Shown here one piece after another: positions 12,463-45,393 of a stretch of 60,628 nt of DNA. The stretch spans positions 1 to 60,628 of the forward strand of contig JADYZN010000017.1 in NCBI GenBank assembly GCA_020853095.1, read 5' to 3'. The position numbers and the translations under genes were made by a program. The stretch comes from Phycisphaerales bacterium. GTDB taxonomy: Bacteria > Planctomycetota > Phycisphaerae > Tepidisphaerales > Tepidisphaeraceae. Below the pieces are notes generated by a model, which saw only the letters and a list, made by a program, of their open reading frames with translations, was not told the DNA's origin and did no database searches. Each line of letters begins with the position of its first letter. The stretch's first letter is position 1.

Positions 12463-14763
12463 TTATATCCCTTTGGCCACCCGGTTGGGAGAGGTGGATT
12501 TTTGTGTCGAATCAACATCCATCATGTAAACCGCCAGCAGGATGTATTCATCCCTCACCGCCGTCTCCGACAGGCGGTCCTGGCATTCGCGCAGGATGAT
12601 GAATGCCGGGCTTCCTTCCGCCGTCTTCATGGATGGCTGATTGATGATGGGGACCAACAGTTTCGCAACGCGGGGCCAATCCTCCTCGGCGGCCGCCGCG
12701 GCACACGATTCGAGGTCAATCGCCGTCGCGATGCCTTGCGGATCGTGGGGACATCGTCTTGCGACGGCCGACAACGCCTCGGAAATCGTCGCATGCGGCT
12801 CGGAACGCCATTGCCGCCATAGTTGCACAAATCCCGCATGATCCCCCGCCATCTGCGCGATCGCCAAAGCCAGTTCCCATCGCTGTCGCTGCCCCTGAAC
12901 CTGACGGAAAAAAACCATGATCTCCAACAGCGCGGCCCGCACCCGCAACGCCCCCAGCGCCGAAGCGTACGCCACCCGCATCCCCAGGTTCAATTCATCG
13001 CGAAACCGCGCCAGCAACAACGGCGCCACCTGCTGATCCCCCAACAACCCCAACGACCGCGCGCTGCGGGCCGCCAGCATGGGAAATTCCGACAACAACG
13101 TCTGCCGCAACGGTTCGATCGCCCGCGCATCCCCGATCCGCCCCAGCGCCAACGCCGCGGCCACGCTCAGATCCGCTTCCGGCCCCAGCAACACCGCGAT
13201 CAACGCATCGGTCAACCGATCATCCGGCCGGGTGCGCGCCATCGCCACGATCGCCTCAAACCTGACGTTATAACTCGGATCATCCAACGCCCCCAGCAAC
13301 TGATCGACCGTCAGGGGGCTGCGCGAATAGGCCAGCGATTCGGTGGTGAGGATTCGAGCCTTCTCGCCGCGCGCCCGGCTGTGCGAAATCATCGACGTGA
13401 CGGCCGAGATCGGATTGCCCCTTAAAAACAGCCCCACGAACTGCATCGGCGCCATCGACCCGCTGTCACTCAGACGCCGGAACAACCACACCCCCGCCCC
13501 CACCAGCACGATGTGGATGATGAACGTCCACGCATACGCATCGAGGATGATGCCGCCGGCGGTTCGCCGCAACGTCGGGCCAAGATCGATGATCTGCCCC
13601 GCGATCAACGGCCCAACACCCCCGACCAATCCGATCCATGCGTAATACAGTGACAGATAGCTGGTCTTTCGTTTGGCCGGAACCATGCTGACAAACAAAT
13701 ATCGGCTCGACCCGATCGTCCAGCCGGGGGACATGATCCCCACCAGCACCGTCAAGGCCGTCGCCAGCGGCAGCGTGCCGGCCTGTGCCCGCGGCATCAT
13801 CAGCAGACCCAGCGGATAGATCGATGCCAGCAGCAATCCGACAATGAATATCGGCTTTGATCCATACCGATCCGAAGCCCACCCCCATCCAAACGAGGAG
13901 ATCAACCCCGACAACAGCGAGATCGTCTGCAACATCAGCACCTGGCTGGCGGTCAATGCCAGCCGTTCGGTCATGAACAGCGGCACAAACGTGGTGCCAA
14001 TCCCCGCCCCCAGCAACACCAGCCCCAATCCCGCCATGTATCGCATAAACGCCGGGTCGCGCAGGGCGGCGGTGATTGACAAGTTTTCACGCTGACCATC
14101 CGGCGGCTGGGGTGCGCCACCCGGCAAAAACGAATAGGCGACGACGCAGATCATTCCGAAAACAAAGGCGATGGCGAAGACGATGGAAAACCGCCACAGG
14201 TCCGGATTTGCCCCGATGATGCGGGCCGCCGCGAACGTGGCGATGCCGCTGAACAGGGCGATCAGGATGTTGTCCATCGCCGCGAACCGACCCCGATAAC
14301 TGGCCGGGACGAACTCCTGCGACCACGGATACAACGCCGTCTCCCCCACCGCCCGGCACAAGGCAAAGACCAGCACCGCCGTCGCCACGAATCCAAACGC
14401 CCCCGCCGACCCCCACCCCTTCACCACCCACGGCGTCAACACCAGCGACAAAATCGCCAGCTTCCGCAGCGTCCAGAAAGTCAAAAACGTCCGCTTCAAC
14501 CCCACCCGGCTCAACCACGGCCCGATCAACGGCGCCATCAGCCCGCAAAACGGAAACAACGACAACAACAGCCCGATTCGCTTTTTATCCAGCCCCAATT
14601 GATCCAGAAACAGCAAAAAGACCGGCCCGAAGATCGACAGCATCCCAAAAATCGAACCGGCCGAATCCCCCGCCAACGCAAACGGCAGCCGCCGTTTCTT
14701 CTGAACGATATTAAGCTCGGCCACCACGCGGTCCATCGCGGCCCAAGTATACGCATTGGCCAT
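12463..14763 (-). CDS. MFS transporter fused to C-terminal HEAT-like repeats
   Basis: A 766-residue protein. About residues 30-440 hold roughly twelve hydrophobic segments of a major facilitator transporter, with an MFS loop reading PLIGPWLSRVGLKRTF. From about residue 470 the chain turns soluble with two or three HEAT/PBS-lyase-like helical repeats (NVRFEAIVAMARTRPDDRL, LGRIGDARAIEPLRQTLL, AARSARSLGLLGDQQVAPLL) and a further helical tail. The fusion suggests a cytoplasmic scaffold or substrate-sensing tail. ATG at 14763 directly follows the T-run of an intrinsic terminator; a start ten codons in (14736) is possible. The substrate is unknown; adjacency to a DUF4838/PEP-CTERM locus hints at sugar uptake. 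Confidence 0.75.
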   Translation of the reverse strand: MANAYTWAAMDRVVAELNIVQKKRRLPFALAGDSAGSIFGMLSIFGPVFLLFLDQLGLDKKRIGLLLSLFPFCGLMAPLIGPWLSRVGLKRTFLTFWTLRKLAILSLVLTPWVVKGWGSAGAFGFVATAVLVFALCRAVGETALYPWSQEFVPASYRGRFAAMDNILIALFSGIATFAAARIIGANPDLWRFSIVFAIAFVFGMICVVAYSFLPGGAPQPPDGQRENLSITAALRDPAFMRYMAGLGLVLLGAGIGTTFVPLFMTERLALTASQVLMLQTISLLSGLISSFGWGWASDRYGSKPIFIVGLLLASIYPLGLLMMPRAQAGTLPLATALTVLVGIMSPGWTIGSSRYLFVSMVPAKRKTSYLSLYYAWIGLVGGVGPLIAGQIIDLGPTLRRTAGGIILDAYAWTFIIHIVLVGAGVWLFRRLSDSGSMAPMQFVGLFLRGNPISAVTSMISHSRARGEKARILTTESLAYSRSPLTVDQLLGALDDPSYNVRFEAIVAMARTRPDDRLTDALIAVLLGPEADLSVAAALALGRIGDARAIEPLRQTLLSEFPMLAARSARSLGLLGDQQVAPLLLARFRDELNLGMRVAYASALGALRVRAALLEIMVFFRQVQGQRQRWELALAIAQMAGDHAGFVQLWRQWRSEPHATISEALSAVARRCPHDPQGIATAIDLESCAAAAAEEDWPRVAKLLVPIINQPSMKTAEGSPAFIILRECQDRLSETAVRDEYILLAVYMMDVDSTQKSTSPNRVAKGI

Positions 14764-15543: not shown

Positions 15544-17868
15544 TCATTGAGACGTGCCACGCGGCATGTCTCCTTTGACGAAAATAATTCGATCCACACG
15601 GATCTGTTGAACGATTGGATTGTCCGTCGGCGCGATCCAGACGTACCGGGTGGATGCCAGATCCACCGTCCCGATGCGATACAGGTGATACCCCTCATCG
15701 GGAATTTCATCATTGGCAACGACCGTCGGACCGATCATGTGACTGTTCTTCAAATCCCATACCCCGCAGGCGAACGCCGATCCCTCTTTCCCGCTTCGTT
15801 CGATGCGAATGGCCGCATAAATCGTCCACCGATCCGCGCCCGGCAGCGGGTTGAGCGTCGCCTGAATCGACCAGTCACGATAATTGCCCGCCAGCCGCGC
15901 TGCCCGGCCATCCGAGGCCATCGGATCGTCGATCCGCCGAACCTGCAATTCGGTTCCATGCAGTTCAAATTCCCCATCCTGCAAGTCGAACCAGTCCGAC
16001 CGGGGCAGATTCCGCACTTCCATCGGCACCGTCGGCTCCCGATCGCTTTGTCTTTGCCGTAATTTTTGAACCCAGGCCGTCAGGTCGATATTTGTCTCCC
16101 CTTCGCTCAACGCGGTGATTTTCTGCCGGGCGAATATCCGCGCCAGCTCATCCACGTAATGACTATAGGGTTGATCAAACGGCCATTGTTCCCCCGCCAT
16201 CGCCGCCCGCTGCCTGCGAACCGGCCAACTGGTGACGATCGCATGCAAAATGGAAGCCTCCACCCCCTCCACCCGATGCACCAATTCGGGTCGATTGACC
16301 ACCTTCTCCTTCCCGCGTTGCAACAGCGCATATCCCTCGCTGGTCACACGGGGTGACAGGTAGGAAGCCAGGTTGGAATCGCTCACGCCGACATGGGTGT
16401 TGCCGGCCGCCTTGTGCAGCAGGTCGATGTACGCCAGCACCTCCGGCCCGGCCTCATGGTAATACTCCCTCACGAACTGATCGATCAGCTTTTGACCATC
16501 CAGGGAAGGATTCCACAGCAACTTGGCCAGCACCCATTGTTTGAGAACCTCAAAATCACCGCCGTGCGAATGGCGGTTGCCCTGCTCAAACAACCCCTTG
16601 ACGCCATGGGCCACAAAAAACCGAACATTTGGCCCCAGGGCATACAGATTCGGGTGTGGCTGTTCGTAATACCGAAAATTGGTGATGTAATCCCAGATGT
16701 ACAGCCGTTTGCAGATGGCCGACCAGTCGCGCACATCACTGGCAAAGGAGGCGTTGATCGGATCGGTGTACGGCTGGGCGAACGAACACTCGATGCTGCA
16801 CAGCCGGACAATCACGTTCGGCAGCGGCCGGGTGATCTTCGGGGCGTGCCGGGTGTACTGATACGCCAGGGTGTCAATGGCGATGTTGGGATAATCCCCG
16901 GCGACATCGGCCGCGATGGCGTTGACAAAGCGGAGCATCGTCCCCGCGTGGCTCCCCTCGGCCTCATCCACCGCCTTGCATGGGTCGCATTGGCAGAAAA
17001 CCTGGTTGTCATCCTGCGAGACCGAGATGATGGCGTGGGTGTTTGGCGGAATTTCCGATGCGATCTGACGAACCTTTTTCTTGACGTACTCCAGCAATTG
17101 CGGGTTTGACAAACACGGTTGCGTGGGGTTGGGCGGGCCGATGCGCTGACCATCGATCTGTGCATACCAATCCGGATGGGTGGCGAACAATTCGGCCGGG
17201 GGAGCCAGCAGGTTCACCGTATGCACAAAATACGGCCCGGCATAGGTGATGTGGCCCCCTTTTTCCGATGGGATGGGGGTGGAATGGCCGTTCAATTTGT
17301 TGCGCACGGCCGTGTCCGGGTCAAACATGCCGATGGCGTGTATCTCCCGGTATTCCACCGGCGGAACATACCGGACATCCAATCCCTCCACGGCCAGATC
17401 CGGCGTATTGGGCACGTGGGTTTCACCCGGCCCCCACCAGCGGAACCCCACCTGATCTTCCAAAAACGTCTCGACAGCGTAAATCGTTCCGCGGGCGGAA
17501 CCTTCCGCGCCACTGAGGATCAGGTGATTCCCGACGCTCTTGAGGACAATCCCCTCATCTCCCAGCGCCTTGGCATCCAGGTCGATCCGCGGATCAATCA
17601 CCCGCGCCGACGATGGCCCCACCGCGATGACCGCCCGATCGCCGGCCGCCGATGGCTCGACAATCTCAAACGTCGCACCGGTGGCCAGCTTGAGACCTTC
17701 CGCCAGTTCCCTGGCGGCGAATTGCTCCCGCGGGCCGGCCTCCTTGTCCAATGCGATCACGGCCGCCGCACGTCCCTGCCGGGCGATCTGAATCCCATGG
17801 GCCGGGACGGCAACGCACCCGCACAGCACCATCAGGCAGCCAAGAATCTGTACATGACCTTTGAGCAT
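15544..17868 (-). CDS. DUF4838 domain protein, exported, glycoside-hydrolase-like
   Basis: A 774-residue exported protein. The N terminus is a signal peptide (LKGHVQILGCLMVLCGC...), possibly a lipoprotein signal at Cys. An alpha-glucuronidase-N-like region (residues about 30-160, with LILSGAEGSARGTIYAVETF and DQVGFRWWGPGETHVP) precedes the DUF4838 barrel (about 210-500), which includes the cysteine motif CQCDPC. A C-terminal beta-rich domain (about 630-770) may bind carbohydrate. The family is often found in planctomycete polysaccharide loci; activity and substrate are not established. It sits 22 bp after a pseudopilin gene and 43 bp before a PEP-CTERM gene. A relative is encoded at 43081-45393. 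Confidence 0.8.
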   Translation of the reverse strand: MLKGHVQILGCLMVLCGCVAVPAHGIQIARQGRAAAVIALDKEAGPREQFAARELAEGLKLATGATFEIVEPSAAGDRAVIAVGPSSARVIDPRIDLDAKALGDEGIVLKSVGNHLILSGAEGSARGTIYAVETFLEDQVGFRWWGPGETHVPNTPDLAVEGLDVRYVPPVEYREIHAIGMFDPDTAVRNKLNGHSTPIPSEKGGHITYAGPYFVHTVNLLAPPAELFATHPDWYAQIDGQRIGPPNPTQPCLSNPQLLEYVKKKVRQIASEIPPNTHAIISVSQDDNQVFCQCDPCKAVDEAEGSHAGTMLRFVNAIAADVAGDYPNIAIDTLAYQYTRHAPKITRPLPNVIVRLCSIECSFAQPYTDPINASFASDVRDWSAICKRLYIWDYITNFRYYEQPHPNLYALGPNVRFFVAHGVKGLFEQGNRHSHGGDFEVLKQWVLAKLLWNPSLDGQKLIDQFVREYYHEAGPEVLAYIDLLHKAAGNTHVGVSDSNLASYLSPRVTSEGYALLQRGKEKVVNRPELVHRVEGVEASILHAIVTSWPVRRQRAAMAGEQWPFDQPYSHYVDELARIFARQKITALSEGETNIDLTAWVQKLRQRQSDREPTVPMEVRNLPRSDWFDLQDGEFELHGTELQVRRIDDPMASDGRAARLAGNYRDWSIQATLNPLPGADRWTIYAAIRIERSGKEGSAFACGVWDLKNSHMIGPTVVANDEIPDEGYHLYRIGTVDLASTRYVWIAPTDNPIVQQIRVDRIIFVKGDMPRGTSQ

Positions 17869-19792: not shown

Positions 19793-19972
19793 ATGCGCAC
19801 CATATTAGCAGAAGATACTCCATGAAGCAGAATTGTCAATGTAATAATATATTTCAGACTATTTATCTTGTAAGTCATGATACTATCTGCTACTACGCTG
19901 CACATTGTTGCCCGGCCTATACACCCACCGGCGAATTGGTAGAATTCATTTTTGGTCCCTTTGGAGCTGTTT
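19793..19972. promoter_or_regulatory. AT-rich divergent control region
   Basis: About 180 bp between the GntR/LacI-type regulator (minus) and an oxidoreductase gene (plus), far more AT-rich than its surroundings around 19805-19905. It holds inverted TAGCAGA (19806-19812) and TCTGCTA (19886-19892), and GATACT occurs twice (near 19813 and 19879). These are possible operator half-sites. No single convincing promoter could be set. Confidence 0.35.
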
Positions 19973-20992
19973 GTGTCCGTTCAATCCACCCATCAAACCC
20001 TGCGAGCCGCCGTGGTTGGCGGGGGCGCATTTGGCGAATGTCATCTGAAAACCTTCGCCTCCATGCCCCAGGTGCAGGTGGCCGGGCTTTATACCCTCGA
20101 AGCCGATCGCGCCCGTGAACTGACCCAAAAATACGGCGGCCGGCCTTATTCCTCATTGCAGGAACTAGCGGCCGACCCCTCCATCGACCTCGTTTCCATC
20201 GCCACCCCGGAAAACGCCCATTTTGAGTCGTTTCAAATTCTTGCTCAACACGAAAAGGCCATTTACGTCGAAAAACCCCTCGCCACCGATCTTGGCGAGG
20301 CCCGCCGGATGATGGAGCTGTCCAAGTCCATCATTGCCATGAGCGGACATTGTTTACGCTTTGAATCAAGGCTGGCGCATATTTTCAATCAGCGCCCCAA
20401 CCTCGGCCGGCTGCACCACATGAGCTTCAAAAACCGCCGGCCGCGACAGCACAAGGTGGTCTATGGCCGGGTTCACCCCGCTTTTGTCCTGCTGTGCCAT
20501 GAAATCGAACTGGCCAACGCCTTTGCCGGCGCACCGTTCAAACGGGTCTGCGCCATGGAATCGCATTTTTCCGCCGGCCAAGTCGACGGCATCAGCATCA
20601 TGATCGAATATCCCGGCAACATCACCTGCCTGATCGAAGGGGGATTTTATCTCCCCAACCAGCAAGCGGTTGAGGAAAACGACCAGGCCACCCTCGATTT
20701 TGAAAACGGAAGTTATTCACTGGTCATGCCTCACACCGGATTCACCTTTGTGGGTCCGCAGGGAAACCGGTTCATCAATCATCATTACGAAAACACCGTT
20801 TACGGCATGGAATTTGGCGCGTTGCGGGCGGCGCTGGATTATTTCACCCACTGCGTGCGTACGCAAAGCCGCCCGACCATCAGCACCATCGAAGATGGCT
20901 TGAACGCGGTGGTCGTCGCCACCGCCGCCGTCGCATCGGCCAAAGCCGGAGTCTGGGTTACCAAAGGAGAAGTTTCGTGCAAAAGCAGTTGA
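19973..20992 (+). CDS. Gfo/Idh/MocA family oxidoreductase
   Basis: NAD(P)-dependent sugar oxidoreductase, about 339 residues. The N-terminal Rossmann domain has AAVVGGGAFGECHLK and the family signature EKPLATD near residue 92; the C-terminal alpha/beta domain follows, with HEIELANAF matching the catalytic-helix region. GTG at 19973 is preferred over TTG at 19952 because GGAG lies seven bases upstream. The gene overlaps the next (triple RidA) by 16 bp, so they form one operon, and it is divergent from a sugar-type repressor. A keto-sugar or imino intermediate made here may be handled by the RidA-like protein (inferred). Confidence 0.85.
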   Translation: MSVQSTHQTLRAAVVGGGAFGECHLKTFASMPQVQVAGLYTLEADRARELTQKYGGRPYSSLQELAADPSIDLVSIATPENAHFESFQILAQHEKAIYVEKPLATDLGEARRMMELSKSIIAMSGHCLRFESRLAHIFNQRPNLGRLHHMSFKNRRPRQHKVVYGRVHPAFVLLCHEIELANAFAGAPFKRVCAMESHFSAGQVDGISIMIEYPGNITCLIEGGFYLPNQQAVEENDQATLDFENGSYSLVMPHTGFTFVGPQGNRFINHHYENTVYGMEFGALRAALDYFTHCVRTQSRPTISTIEDGLNAVVVATAAVASAKAGVWVTKGEVSCKSS

Positions 20993-22209
20993 TCGCCCCC
21001 CCCAATCACCGCGGCAGCGCCTGGAACACCACAACGCAGGCCGTGCGCGTTGGCGATTTGATCTTCGTCGGCGGACAAATGTCACTGGATGAAAAAGGAA
21101 ACGTCGTCGGGACCGATGTCGCCACGCAGGCCCGCAACGCATTCGAATCGCTCAAAAAAGTGATGGAAGCCGCCGGCGCCTCCATGAAGGACGTTGTGAA
21201 ACACAACGTTTATTTCACCTGCGATGCAGACCAGGCGGCCGTGGACAAGTTCATCAATGACCTGAACAAAGTCCGCGTCAACTATTTCACCGATCCCGGC
21301 CCCACCACCACCGAAGTCCGCTGCGGCCTGGAAAAGCAGGGCGCGCTGCTTTTGATCGATGCCTGGGCGGTTGTCGGCGGCAAAAAAGAACGCCTCGCGC
21401 CGCCGGGACATTGGAACTGGGACAAAAAACTCCCCTTCTCCCATGGCTGGAAGGTGGGCGATCTGGTCTTCATCGGCGGCCAGCGCTCGCTGGATCAGAA
21501 TGGCCGGATGCTGGGGGTGGGGGACATCGAAACCCAGACCGACAATTCGTTTAGAAACCTCGATACGCTGCTGGTGGCGGCCGGTGGTGATCGCCACAAC
21601 CTGATGCGGCAGAATACATATTACCGCTTCCAGGGCGAAGGGCGCAACGTCACGCAGTATTGGGAAAAGATGAACCGCGTGCGCGAGCGGTGGATGTCAC
21701 GGCCGACCGGCGCCGGCGCGGGGCTGCGCATCACCGGCATGCCCAACAACGATGAACTGATCCAGGTCGAAGGGGTCGGCGTGCTGGGAACCAAAAACAA
21801 GTTGCGGCTTCAGCCGGCCAACCACTGGGATTGGAGCAACAAGGGCAACGCGAACACCCAGGGTTGGCGGATCAACAACCTCGCCTTCATCGGCGGGCAG
21901 ATCTCGGCCGATTCCAACGCCAGGGCGGTAGGCAGGGATTTGGCCGAGCAGACCCGCAACGTCTATCGCTTCATCCGCAAAGTCATGGATGAGGCCAACC
22001 TTGATGAGAGCGATGTGGCCAAGCTGTACATCTATTATCACGCCCCCGAAGACTGGAAACAGATCGAACAGGCCCGCCGGACGATGGAACAGATCACGCG
22101 GGAATTTTATCCCGCCCCCGGCCCCTGCGTCACCGCCATCCGTGTCAGCGGCTTCGCCTACGAGGAGCTGCTGGTCGAGATCGAGGCGATGGCGATCTGC
22201 CGGGATTGA
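20977..22209 (+). CDS. protein with three tandem RidA (YjgF/YER057c) domains
   Basis: A 410-residue protein built of three consecutive RidA-like domains (about 1-135, 139-270, 275-410), each with the core VGDLIFVGGQ (then VGDLVFIGGQ, INNLAFIGGQ). Ordinary RidA is about 130 residues and works as a trimer, so this chain may fold as a pseudo-trimer on its own. The Arg that in RidA binds the imine carboxylate (ARS) is replaced in all three repeats (GPT, GAG, GPC), so classical enamine/imine deaminase activity is doubtful. GTG start with AAAGGAGA upstream, overlapping the oxidoreductase by 16 bp. A strong terminator follows. Confidence 0.85.
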   Translation: MQKQLIAPPNHRGSAWNTTTQAVRVGDLIFVGGQMSLDEKGNVVGTDVATQARNAFESLKKVMEAAGASMKDVVKHNVYFTCDADQAAVDKFINDLNKVRVNYFTDPGPTTTEVRCGLEKQGALLLIDAWAVVGGKKERLAPPGHWNWDKKLPFSHGWKVGDLVFIGGQRSLDQNGRMLGVGDIETQTDNSFRNLDTLLVAAGGDRHNLMRQNTYYRFQGEGRNVTQYWEKMNRVRERWMSRPTGAGAGLRITGMPNNDELIQVEGVGVLGTKNKLRLQPANHWDWSNKGNANTQGWRINNLAFIGGQISADSNARAVGRDLAEQTRNVYRFIRKVMDEANLDESDVAKLYIYYHAPEDWKQIEQARRTMEQITREFYPAPGPCVTAIRVSGFAYEELLVEIEAMAICRD

Positions 22210-22288
22210 GTAAATCTCACTTGGCGATTTGATCTTCCCCGCACATCCAGTCGGACGCGGGTCACGGGTCGCATCTTCATGGCAAATA

Positions 22289-22330
22289 GACGCCCATCGA
22301 ACCCCAACGGGTCGATGGGCGTCGTTTTTT
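22289..22330 (+). terminator. intrinsic terminator after the oxidoreductase-RidA operon
   Basis: Perfect 12-bp stem, GACGCCCATCGA (22289-22300) with its complement (22312-22323), an 11-nt loop and then GTTTTTT (22324-22330). It ends the transcript of the Gfo/Idh and RidA genes and insulates the flagellar unit. Confidence 0.9.
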
Positions 22331-22352
22331 GCGCCTGGACGGGGCAAATTTC

Positions 22353-22381
22353 TACAGTTTTGGCCGCCCTGGTTCCGATAA
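22353..22381 (+). promoter_or_regulatory. sigma-28-like promoter before the fliD unit
   Basis: TACAGTTT (22353-22360) and TCCGATAA (22374-22381) match the enteric FliA (sigma-28) boxes TAAAGTTT and GCCGATAA at seven of eight positions each. The spacer is 13 bp instead of the enteric 11. It lies 32 bp before the first start codon of the flagellar unit and just after a terminator. Confidence 0.5.
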
Positions 22382-22413
22382 TCCATGGGATTTGCATCTG
22401 GGAGGATCGCAAC

Positions 22414-22617
22414 ATGCTTGAAATCGCGTCCACGGCGCAACGATTGCGAACGGTAAGGGAAGCACAGAGGCATTTTTTGGGCATGTGGGCGGCCCAATGT
22501 CTTGCCGATAAGAGTCTGGACAGGATGTCCACGGACCTGGAGCATCTGCAAGCCGATGACGATCCGTTTGACCATGACTGGTCGCGGCTCTATCGCGGCA
22601 GCGTATTGGACGATTAG
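22414..22617 (+). CDS. small protein upstream of fliD, unknown
   Basis: A 67-residue, predicted helical, acidic protein (MLEIASTAQRL start, HLQADDDPFDHD near the end) with no signal peptide and no family I recognise. GGGAGG lies nine bases before the ATG and the stop is six bases before fliD, so it is in the fliD-fliS transcript under the sigma-28-like promoter. Its size and position suggest a flagellar accessory such as a FliD chaperone (FliT-like in position, not in visible sequence). An in-frame ATG further upstream at 22279 would read through the terminator and is rejected. Confidence 0.6.
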   Translation: MLEIASTAQRLRTVREAQRHFLGMWAAQCLADKSLDRMSTDLEHLQADDDPFDHDWSRLYRGSVLDD

Positions 22618-43080: not shown

Positions 43081-45393
43081 TCATTCCACCATCGCATCGA
43101 CGGTGCATCCCGTCAGTGCGATGGTGGGATCGTGGTATTGGTTCAGCAGACGGAATTTCAGCCGGATCGTGCCGCCATCCTTGAGCACTTCGGCCGGGAC
43201 CTCCACGCCCTGTCCCATCTGCGCCAAATCGGTCGTCAACTCTTTTTCCCGCCCATCGCCCGACACCACCGACAACGACCCGGAAAATCGTTCCGGGTTG
43301 ACAATGTCCCATCGCACGCTGGCGGAGGTGATTTGGTGCCCTTGTTGCGCCTTCAACGGAAGATCCATTTCCCCGGAACCGTTCACCGGCAGGTCATATC
43401 CCCACAGGCCCTTTCGAAAACCTGTGATGGTCGCGAAGAACTTGATCCCGCCGCCATACATGAAACCGGAAGAATACCTCTGTTTGCCGGCCGGCAACGC
43501 CCCCAAATCCGGCTCCAATGAGCGGCGCACCATCCCGATCCCCAATTCCCCCACGGTTCGATCAAATGCGTACCGCCCAAGGTCCGTCTGTGAAAACCGA
43601 TCCACCTCATCCACCAACCCCAGGATTTTCACCCGATCCGCCGATCCCCGCCCCTGTGTAAACAGCCGCATCGCCTCGGCGAATTTGGCGCTGTATTTCC
43701 ACGCCTGCGTGACCAGCTCCGCCCGCCAGCGCGTGTCCGGGTCCATCCGGTCCATCAGCGCCTCGACGCGCTGCATGTAACCATCGCACTTGCCGATCAC
43801 CTCCGGCGTCAGCACGTTTGGAATCTCCACCACATCCCCCACGACATACCCCTGCCGATCCATCGCATCCTGCAACGTCTTGTAATACGCCTCCATCGGC
43901 ACCGCCGCCGGCCCGAACCCGACCCGGCAGTAATCCTTGACCTCCGCCGCCACGTCCAGCTTCGGGTTCCAGATCAGCCTGGGAAACAGCCAGTACGTCA
44001 GCCCCTGCGTCCCCCAGCTTGGGTGCGTCTCGCTGCAGAACATGTAAAACTTCGGGTCATCGCACATCGCCGGAATGTCGGTCGCCAGCTCCGTCGTGAT
44101 CGGCCAGGGGGTGAACCAACTGTAATGGCCGTAATAGGTATACACGCCCAGCCCATCCGATATTTTGGACCAGCCGGCCCACGCATCCCGAAACTTGCGA
44201 TTCACATCCGAAAACAGCGGGTGGGCGTGATTGACCCCAAACGAATACGCGGCCGTCCACGCCGTCAGGATCGGAATGACACCCTTCGCCGGCTTCACGT
44301 GATCCGGCAACGTCGAATAGTTGTCATAGGCGTAAAAGACAACCCGCACCTGCGGATAAACCTTGTGCAGGTCCTCCGCCACGAGGTTGGCGTAATTCAA
44401 CACCAGCGAAGTGGCCGAGCCATCCTTGTCGATCAACTTTACGCAGTTGTCGCACTGACACATCGCCTTCCAATCATTCGGCGAGACAAAGGCATCGATC
44501 CGATCCACCGATGCCCCCGCGTCGATATGCCGTTTGATTATGGCAATCAGATTCCTGGCAAATTCCGCGGCCCCCTCCTTGTTGGTGAAACAGACCTGCC
44601 ATCTGCCCGATCCATCCTGCCGTTTCCCATCGATCAGGTTGAACCATTCCGGATGTTCCTTGAAATATTTTTCCGGCGGCAAAAAGTACATGTACGAATG
44701 CCCGGCCCCTTCGATCAAATAATTGTCCTTTATGCCGCCAAACGACTGGTTCCAGTTCATCCGCATCCGCAGCGAGAAGAGGGTCCCGGCATCCATCCCA
44801 TGCTCCTGGGCGGAAGTGGCCGGAACGCTGTATTTTTGACCCGGAGGATACAGGTAATAACCGCCGCGCACCGCCACCCTGGGCGATTCGATCTGATGCG
44901 ATGTTGCGATCTCAATCGTCCCCTTTTGCGGCACATATGTCCCATGCACCCCCGGCATCAGAAACCGCACCCCCTGATCTTCCAGCCATTGCCACGCCGC
45001 CCAGATCGTCGAATCCTCCGACCGCCCCACCAGCGACAATCGCTCCCCATCGCCCACCACCGCGAAGGCGTCGATGGTGTCGGGATGTTTCTGATTCAAT
45101 TCATCAATGATCGCCTGATTTTGCGGCTGATGCCCCACGAAAATCGCCGGCCCCTCCCCACCCTCACCCCCCTCGGCCGCCTTGACGATCGGCAACGTCG
45201 CCCCGCTCATCTTCTGGACAAATGTCTGAATCTCCTCGGCCGCGAACATCTCCCCTTTGCTCGCCTGATCCGGCACCACGATCTTCCCGGCCACCTTCCC
45301 ATCCTTCACCAGCACCGCCGCGCCCCGCGCCATCGAGCCGATCCCCATCAACAGACTGCCAGACAGCAGAATCCGAGCCAATACGTTCATCAT
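43081..45393 (-). CDS. DUF4838 domain protein, exported, second copy
   Basis: A 770-residue exported protein with a signal peptide (residues 1-24, ARGAA region) and the same layout as the protein at 15544-17868: an alpha-glucuronidase-N-like domain (SLVGRSEDSTIWAAWQWLED), a DUF4838 barrel with the CQCDNC motif (CQCDPC in the other copy) and EHPEWFNLIDGKRQ, then helical and beta-rich C-terminal parts. The two are paralogs with low similarity outside these parts. It ends the LacI-PEP-CTERM-pseudopilin row. Activity is unknown; a glycan-degrading role is inferred from context. Confidence 0.8.
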   Translation of the reverse strand: MMNVLARILLSGSLLMGIGSMARGAAVLVKDGKVAGKIVVPDQASKGEMFAAEEIQTFVQKMSGATLPIVKAAEGGEGGEGPAIFVGHQPQNQAIIDELNQKHPDTIDAFAVVGDGERLSLVGRSEDSTIWAAWQWLEDQGVRFLMPGVHGTYVPQKGTIEIATSHQIESPRVAVRGGYYLYPPGQKYSVPATSAQEHGMDAGTLFSLRMRMNWNQSFGGIKDNYLIEGAGHSYMYFLPPEKYFKEHPEWFNLIDGKRQDGSGRWQVCFTNKEGAAEFARNLIAIIKRHIDAGASVDRIDAFVSPNDWKAMCQCDNCVKLIDKDGSATSLVLNYANLVAEDLHKVYPQVRVVFYAYDNYSTLPDHVKPAKGVIPILTAWTAAYSFGVNHAHPLFSDVNRKFRDAWAGWSKISDGLGVYTYYGHYSWFTPWPITTELATDIPAMCDDPKFYMFCSETHPSWGTQGLTYWLFPRLIWNPKLDVAAEVKDYCRVGFGPAAVPMEAYYKTLQDAMDRQGYVVGDVVEIPNVLTPEVIGKCDGYMQRVEALMDRMDPDTRWRAELVTQAWKYSAKFAEAMRLFTQGRGSADRVKILGLVDEVDRFSQTDLGRYAFDRTVGELGIGMVRRSLEPDLGALPAGKQRYSSGFMYGGGIKFFATITGFRKGLWGYDLPVNGSGEMDLPLKAQQGHQITSASVRWDIVNPERFSGSLSVVSGDGREKELTTDLAQMGQGVEVPAEVLKDGGTIRLKFRLLNQYHDPTIALTGCTVDAMVE

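Follow-up and report, generated by a model that had tools for sequence, protein, structure and literature searches.

A fused triple Rid-domain protein without the RidA arginine: a candidate catabolic enzyme with diverged clefts

Introduction

Fused "3x-RidA" proteins, members of the RidA subfamily that are presumed to be covalent trimers, were published in 2015 (Niehaus et al., PMC4433059). In RidA, Arg105 forms a salt bridge with the substrate carboxylate (PMC4433059, PMC4960622), and the Arg-to-Ala variants of RidA and of RutC, the latter an example of a dedicated catabolic Rid enzyme, are inactive or nearly so (PMC4433059, PMC8113886). Replacement of Tyr17 and Glu120 changes the activity of RidA little (PMC4433059), and the plant equivalent of Cys107 contacts the ligand (PMC4960622). 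Arg105 is missing from the groups Rid4–Rid7, which keep Glu120, with Trp at position 105 in Rid4 and Rid7; as of 2015 their functions were described as "completely unknown" (PMC4433059). Here we analyse a gene for a triple Rid-domain protein in a contig of 60,628 nucleotides from a Phycisphaerales bacterium of the planctomycete family Tepidisphaeraceae (GenBank assembly GCA_020853095.1, contig JADYZN010000017.1, positions 1 to 60,628, forward strand), the whole of which is called the window below. An earlier note, made from the letters of this DNA, had pointed to three RidA domains in one chain, to the loss of the catalytic arginine from all of them and to an overlap with a sugar oxidoreductase gene.

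Results

Three Rid domains without Arg105

In the list of open reading frames (ORFs) of the window and their translations, the gene is intact and has a GTG start (Table 1). The Pfam search of the protein returned three stretches of PF01042, with 148.9 bits in total, as expected of a member of the Rid/YjgF superfamily, and in a profile search of its own genome domains 1, 2 and 3 scored 65.5, 37.3 and 53.1 bits, respectively, each above the cut-off of 27.3 bits, which bears out the proposed three domains per chain, the make-up of a 3x-RidA protein, also seen in the structural model. The same profile search found three further PF01042 places in this genome. The overlap with the upstream Gfo/Idh/MocA gene was correctly seen too; the start given for the latter is a GTG picked to match a homologue of 339 aa in locus L009, the start in the ORF list being a TTG at 19952.

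Table 1. Positions in the window of the triple Rid gene, its domains and the overlapping upstream gene
Feature	Positions	Strand	Description
Triple Rid-domain protein	20977..22209	+	410 aa; RidA Arg105 absent from all three domains
Domain 1 (residues 1-139)	20977..21393	+	T111 at Arg105 and E113 at Cys107, both 32/32; Arg at +4, R115, 29/32
Domain 2 (residues 140-277)	21394..21807	+	G247 at Arg105, G249 at Cys107, R251, Q263 at Glu120; all 33/33
Domain 3 (residues 278-410 and stop)	21808..22209	+	V385 at the variable Arg105 site; R389 31/32; E401, Glu120 equivalent, 32/32
Shine-Dalgarno-like AAAGGAG	20963..20969	+	7 bases 5' of the GTG start, within the upstream gene
Gfo/Idh/MocA oxidoreductase	19973..20992	+	16 bp overlap with the triple Rid gene

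The three domains were aligned residue by residue with E. coli RidA, RutC, YjgH, the Rid proteins of the same genome (two of the three others, here and in the trees, leaving out L002), single-domain relatives and other triples, and conservation was counted in 33 triple sequences including that of the window, once duplicate loci within a genome had been removed; the second G802 copy is not part of this set. The residues that match Arg105 of E. coli RidA are T111, G247 and V385, in the motifs GPT, GAG and GPC that had been read from the sequence, and not one of the 33 sequences has an arginine there, so the conserved Arg105 of the RidA subfamily is lacking. The position is fixed as Thr in domain 1 and as Gly in domain 2, and varies in domain 3 (Val 16, Ser 8, Ala 6, Ile 1 and Gln 1). 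At the Cys107 position, Glu and Gly are likewise invariant in domains 1 and 2, respectively, and domain 3 has Ala (20), Ser (11) or Met (1). The Glu120 position holds Leu, Gln or Met in domain 1, always Gln in domain 2 and always Glu in domain 3, and the Tyr17 position is T19 (mostly Gly in the homologues), F154 (Phe in 31 of 32) and N293 (Phe in 31 of 33); the pair of Tyr17 and Glu120 that is conserved in the RidA subfamily is therefore not kept, Glu120 surviving in domain 3 alone. Since two of the clefts have fixed new residues, while the third has kept Glu and lets the Arg position drift, they are unequal, in agreement with the earlier suggestion that the clefts had changed and might differ from one another.

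The alternative that a shift in the alignment hides Arg105, which the earlier note had itself raised, was ruled out, because the distances from this position to the neighbouring Pro and to the last strand are unchanged, apart from a deletion of one residue after position 109 in domain 1 that RutC shares, and because none of the 33 sequences has Arg at this position. What the alignment revealed instead is an arginine four residues further on (R115, R251 and R389), in place of Glu109 of RidA, present in 29 of 32, 33 of 33 and 31 of 32 sequences for domains 1, 2 and 3, respectively. Judged from the alignment, this +4 arginine is a strand position of its own and not a displaced Arg105, and among the observations it alone could restore a RidA-like role to the triple protein.

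A predicted pseudo-trimer

An AlphaFold2 model built from 10 sequences (pTM 0.77, mean pLDDT 69) has, judged by its whole-chain fold matches, the three repeats of the single chain packed with pseudo-threefold symmetry, in line with the earlier idea that the usual trimer is here made by one asymmetric chain. In the Foldseek ranking chorismatases came best, followed by cyclic amide hydrolases and RutC. With VIA-align, chorismatases scored Z 22–23 (5ag3_C: Z 22.9, 3.5 Å, 297 residues aligned), the FIST domain of FBXO22 (8ua3_C) Z 15.9 over 269 residues, and the best-scoring single-domain match was RutC (3v4d_C), with Z 17.2 on domain 1. In the model, the triple protein looks like a Rid pseudo-trimer that is still recognisable by sequence.

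Selection and distribution

Against its counterpart in a second species of the genus, the gene has a dN/dS of 0.06 at 95% identity, and full-length homologues in other genomes share 57–95% identity, so that the gene is neither a chance reading nor a decayed one. In fact, a pseudogene or an accident of frame was ruled out by this dN/dS, and the antisense reading is interrupted by stops. Between the genus of the window and other planctomycetes, Acidobacteriota and rhizobial plasmids the identity is 57–72%. In 32 sequences, 133 core columns are invariant, 26, 58 and 49 in domains 1, 2 and 3, respectively; domain 2 is the most conserved, with a mean pairwise identity of 0.80 against 0.69 and 0.78 and with 58 of its 130 columns invariant. 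Two homologues (L036 and L050) carry one in-frame stop each, a TAG in one and a TGA in the other, from decay or assembly error.

The triple gene was found in two of the 298 sampled genomes of its class, namely those of the window and of the same-genus relative, and in two of the 392 genomes sampled from the phylum, the window's own and a distant triple of 28% identity that keeps Arg. It occurs in 25 of 120 sampled genomes of another planctomycete family, where the match of genome G803 is a fragment of 212 aa, in two of 39 genomes of one Terriglobia family and on two Mesorhizobium plasmids. In a tree of the triple proteins, computed without the fragment L057, the window and its same-genus relative group with a gene of the other planctomycete family (support 93/95), a placement compatible with horizontal acquisition.

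Origin of the domains and of the fusion

In a tree of single domains, those bearing Arg (RidA, RutC, the two Rids of the same genome and the triple of planctomycete G352) are split with support 98/82 from the Arg-less ones, which include YjgH. Each domain of the window's triple family forms one clade (100/100), and domains 2 and 3 are joined by the two closest single-domain cousins, those of Arthrobacter (L021) and Paracoccus (L022), with support 91/83; the deep branching order is unsure, because of long branches. Since the single-domain cousins also lack Arg, all seven of those used standing on the Arg-less side, the loss of Arg105 is probably older than the fusion.

The fusion itself appears from the tree to have arisen more than once, in the window's triple family, in a Sinorhizobium triple and in the Arg-bearing triple of G352. 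The second of these, on a Sinorhizobium plasmid (L023, 10001–11212, forward strand), is another Arg-less triple Rid, apparently independent, with 26% identity, and its three domains cluster together (97/96). The third (L018, 1474–2676, reverse strand) has Arg in all three domains, so that triples with and without Arg both exist; it shows by eye a signal-like N-terminus and may be an exported 3x-RidA.

A linked M24-fold gene and a catabolic setting

In a survey of 34 distinct triple loci, a gene of the M24/creatinase fold lies directly 3' of the triple gene in five: two from Mesorhizobium (L019 and L020) and three from planctomycetes (L035, L059 and L062). Searches with these M24 proteins found none in the other triple loci. 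The Mesorhizobium and planctomycete M24 proteins are 60–61% identical. In the sample of 120 genomes, 25 carry the triple gene and 25 the M24 gene (E ≤ 1e-60), and 17 carry both against 5.2 expected (Fisher p 3.3e-9, kinship ignored), the M24 gene being present in 17 of 25 triple-bearing and in 8 of 95 other genomes. Moreover, two records of the plasmid collection encode an M24 of about 60% identity, and both have the triple gene adjacent to it.

The closest NCBIfam model of the M24 proteins is ectoine hydrolase DoeA, at scores far under its cut-off of 575 bits (140.4, 120.4 and 134.7 for L019, L059 and L062, respectively). Compared with the Xaa-Pro dipeptidase 1wy2, whose metal ligands we take to be D, D, H, E and E, the L059 protein has E, T, Y, E and I, which is not the ligand set of an M24 metallopeptidase; by this alignment four of the five metal ligands are replaced. 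Creatinase-type hydrolases likewise have their metal ligands replaced.

Beyond the M24 gene, the Mesorhizobium cluster contains an IclR regulator, an amino-acid ABC transporter, a DoeB-like deacylase (283.4 bits against a cut-off of 402.7) and a serine/threonine-dehydratase relative (290 against 331 bits for the best model, 242.5 against 413 for EutB), and is arranged like ectoine catabolism, though all three enzymes score below the cut-off. Of 27 planctomycete M24 loci, 15 have a gene of MFS type next to the M24 gene, galactonate-transporter-like in the five members to which a profile gave a name, and five have genes of enolase-superfamily type nearby, two of them named in the same way; these M24 clusters (L118, L119, L122 and others) probably represent an uncharacterised planctomycete catabolic cluster. 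In L077 a threonine-dehydratase-like gene adjoins the triple gene. Where the neighbourhoods can be read, their theme would be the breakdown of small compounds, many of which are acidic or contain nitrogen.

The neighbours in the window

The overlapping Gfo/Idh pair is confined to the window and its same-genus relative, the only two of the 34 loci in which the genes are adjacent; in four further loci related Gfo/Idh genes lie 1.4–6.3 kb from the triple gene. Of the partnership with the sugar oxidoreductase that the earlier note had drawn from the overlap, what stands is thus the overlap in two species of one genus, and as a general partner Gfo/Idh was rejected.

DUF4838 (GH67-N-like) was the other candidate. 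Such a gene is the same-strand neighbour of the triple gene in L014 (at about 80 bp) and in L017 (at about 45 bp), whose whole genomes hold five and two copies, respectively, and the nearest one in the window is 3 kb away. A general partnership was not borne out: adjacency occurs in two of 34 loci, the remaining ones having been scanned in part, since the DUF4838 profile was run on the genomes of the window, of the same-genus relative and of L009–L017, and elsewhere similarity or single neighbours alone were used. The copy in the window cannot count as support, because in the same-genus genome its likely homologue and the triple gene lie on separate contigs, and the triple gene is preceded there by different DNA. 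The window has DUF4838 places at 15544–17868 and 43882–44946, both on the reverse strand, and the family is expanded, with 10 matches in this genome and 12 in the same-genus relative against none over the cut-off in 14 control genomes.

Elsewhere, the triple gene of L070 has a rhamnose isomerase gene and a sugar ABC operon downstream of it. Pfam searches matched no family for an ORF of 876 aa upstream in L009, nor for many of the neighbours in planctomycetes. Between the triple gene and fliD the window has an ORF of 112 aa (22279–22617, forward strand), 76% identical over 101 aa in the congener, whose single Pfam match is below the cut-off. A protein of 766 aa encoded at 12463–14763 on the reverse strand fuses an MFS transporter region to HEAT repeats.

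Discussion

The reading that we favour, with moderate confidence, is that the triple protein is an Arg-less covalent Rid pseudo-trimer with diverged clefts, working as an enzyme of small-molecule catabolism, and thus probably a new catabolic enzyme on a common fold as against an ordinary detoxifier. The three domains, the loss of Arg, the unequal conservation, the purifying selection and the linkage and co-occurrence with M24, together with the pseudo-trimer fold of the model, point in this direction. The ancestral Rid lineage had probably lost the carboxylate-clamping Arg105 before the fusion, after which the clefts between the domains would have diverged, to Thr/Glu in domain 1 and Gly/Gly with Gln in domain 2, with the Glu kept in domain 3. 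The protein would then be a cytosolic enzyme that binds a small molecule in the clefts of domain 1, domain 2 or both and makes no carboxylate salt bridge of the RidA type; the reaction might be the hydrolysis or isomerisation of an intermediate that is enamine- or imine-like or otherwise hydrolysable and contains nitrogen. Its companion in many hosts would be the M24 protein, a putative C–N hydrolase; in the M24-less genus of the window the triple gene has the overlap with the Gfo/Idh dehydrogenase gene.

Several observations weigh against this proposal. The mean pLDDT of the model is no higher than 69, and the model was judged by fold matches and not by cleft geometry. Most triple loci in the survey have few neighbours in common. 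This M24 gene does not occur in the genomes of the window and of its same-genus relative or in the two from Terriglobia, where the best paralogues reach 28–29% identity or are missing, so that it cannot be an obligate partner; moreover, eight of the 25 triple-bearing genomes lack it and eight genomes have it without the triple gene, in counts that ignore relatedness. The three planctomycete cases of adjacency belong to one clade, and physical linkage is therefore seen in two lineages. In addition, an Aminobacter plasmid encodes an M24 relative of 46% identity with no Rid gene annotated up to 12 kb away, in a gene table that is incomplete.

Among the other explanations, that of a non-catalytic pseudoenzyme, in which the pseudo-trimer would serve as sensor or carrier of a metabolite or as scaffold for a partner in the manner of the FIST domain of FBXO22, is unlikely. 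In its favour, FBXO22 aligns over most of the model, its FIST domain is described as having no obvious ligand pocket (PMC11185555) and Arg105 is gone from every domain; what speaks against it is that the invariant columns include cleft positions of domains 1 and 2 and that the neighbours that could be named are often catabolic genes. We regard as rather improbable a role in a sugar pathway, in which the protein would act on a keto-sugar from the overlapping Gfo/Idh enzyme, the sugar being supplied via DUF4838 proteins. The retention of the overlap in the other species of the genus, the two loci with DUF4838 adjoining and the rhamnose locus L070 would fit such a role, but the restriction of the adjacent Gfo/Idh gene to a single genus, the separate contig and unlike upstream DNA in the same-genus genome and the scarcity of DUF4838 at the loci scanned count against it.

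An imine/enamine deaminase with a relocated arginine, R115, R251 and R389 taking over the binding of the carboxylate, seems to us more doubtful again. In its favour, the +4 arginine is near-invariant in all domains, would share the strand and the register of positions 105 and 107 (i, i+2, i+4), also occurs in the nearest single-domain cousins (L021 and L022) and could be matched to the dehydratase-like genes of L077 and of the Mesorhizobium cluster. Four residues along a strand, on the other hand, would span about 13 Å, a distance from which the same spot could hardly be reached without remodelling, and the loss of activity in the Arg-to-Ala variants of RidA and RutC (PMC4433059 and PMC8113886) argues the same way. 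Finally, an ordinary 3x-RidA that is decaying, its active sites relaxed and without a function of its own, to which the loss of Arg in all domains, the variable site in domain 3 and the two in-frame stops might point, is scarcely credible given the dN/dS, the identity kept across distant hosts and the many invariant core columns.

With tens of homologues, conservation specific to each cleft and a linked M24 partner whose gene points to C–N bond chemistry, the family is suited to asking what Arg-less Rids do, and it may show how a homotrimer with equal sites turns into an asymmetric enzyme. Going further, and only tentatively, one may imagine an Arg-independent Rid enzyme with clefts specialised one by one, an intermediate, recognisable by sequence, on the way from homotrimeric Rid proteins to asymmetric single-chain enzymes like chorismatases or cyclic amide hydrolases, which in many hosts would form with a metal-free M24 C–N hydrolase a two-step module for the catabolism of nitrogen compounds, transferred among planctomycetes, Acidobacteriota and rhizobial plasmids; this we hold to be possible, on balance doubtful.

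Comparison with known systems

The likeness to chorismatases (5ag3, 5a3k and 4bps) lies in the single chain and the best whole-chain fold match. The identity in the structural alignment is, however, 14–15%, the Rid domains of the window protein are still recognisable by sequence, and searches of Pfam and NCBIfam at E 0.01 gave no match to a chorismatase family. Cyclic amide hydrolases of the Toblerone fold (5hy0, 5hy2 and 5hy4), by Foldseek, and the FIST domain of FBXO22, by VIA-align, also match over the whole chain, and neither was among the PDB sequence matches at E 0.01.

Among Rid proteins, RutC is the best single-domain structural match but keeps Arg104, which is essential for the deamination of 3-aminoacrylate (PMC8113886); the window protein has no such Arg and scored 90.6 bits with the NCBIfam model TIGR03610, against a cut-off of 169.1. 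Compared with Rid4–Rid7 at positions 105 and 120, and not by CDD footprints, its domains have neither Arg nor Trp at 105, unlike Rid4 and Rid7, which have Trp, and Glu120 in domain 3 solely. The single-domain cousins L024, L025 and L027, which lie in rut-like operons, are Arg-less as well. Their neighbours are a flavin reductase, an alpha/beta hydrolase and an LLM oxidoreductase, joined in L025 and L027 by ring-hydroxylating dioxygenase genes; the LLM protein of L027 reaches 282 of the 498 bits required for RutA.

OngD, of the pathway for GlcNAc1A in oxidised chitin catabolism, is a Rid protein whose catabolic cluster also encodes a deacylase and a PLP deaminase; it is essential in the catabolism of this amino-sugar acid, in a role called unknown, and differs in being a single domain of 127 aa (likened by description; PMC9537276). 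RutC and OngD serve here as analogies for a catabolic Rid role, not as tests of it, and 2-aminomuconate deaminase (PMC6742747) belongs to the same background.

The triple fusion already described is 3x-RidA of the EF_0115 type (PMC4433059), which was compared by description and shares the three tandem Rid domains and the presumed covalent trimer. Its members belong to the RidA subfamily, whereas the triple of the window lacks Arg105, its domains have diverged, and they group with Arg-less Rids. The earlier note had allowed that the same fusion might already be well characterised: a triple Rid fusion is indeed published, but no characterised Arg-less one, nor any Rid–M24 pair, was found in the literature searched, which comprised open-licence papers. 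What is new here, compared with the fusion known since 2015, is an Arg-less triple with unequal clefts.

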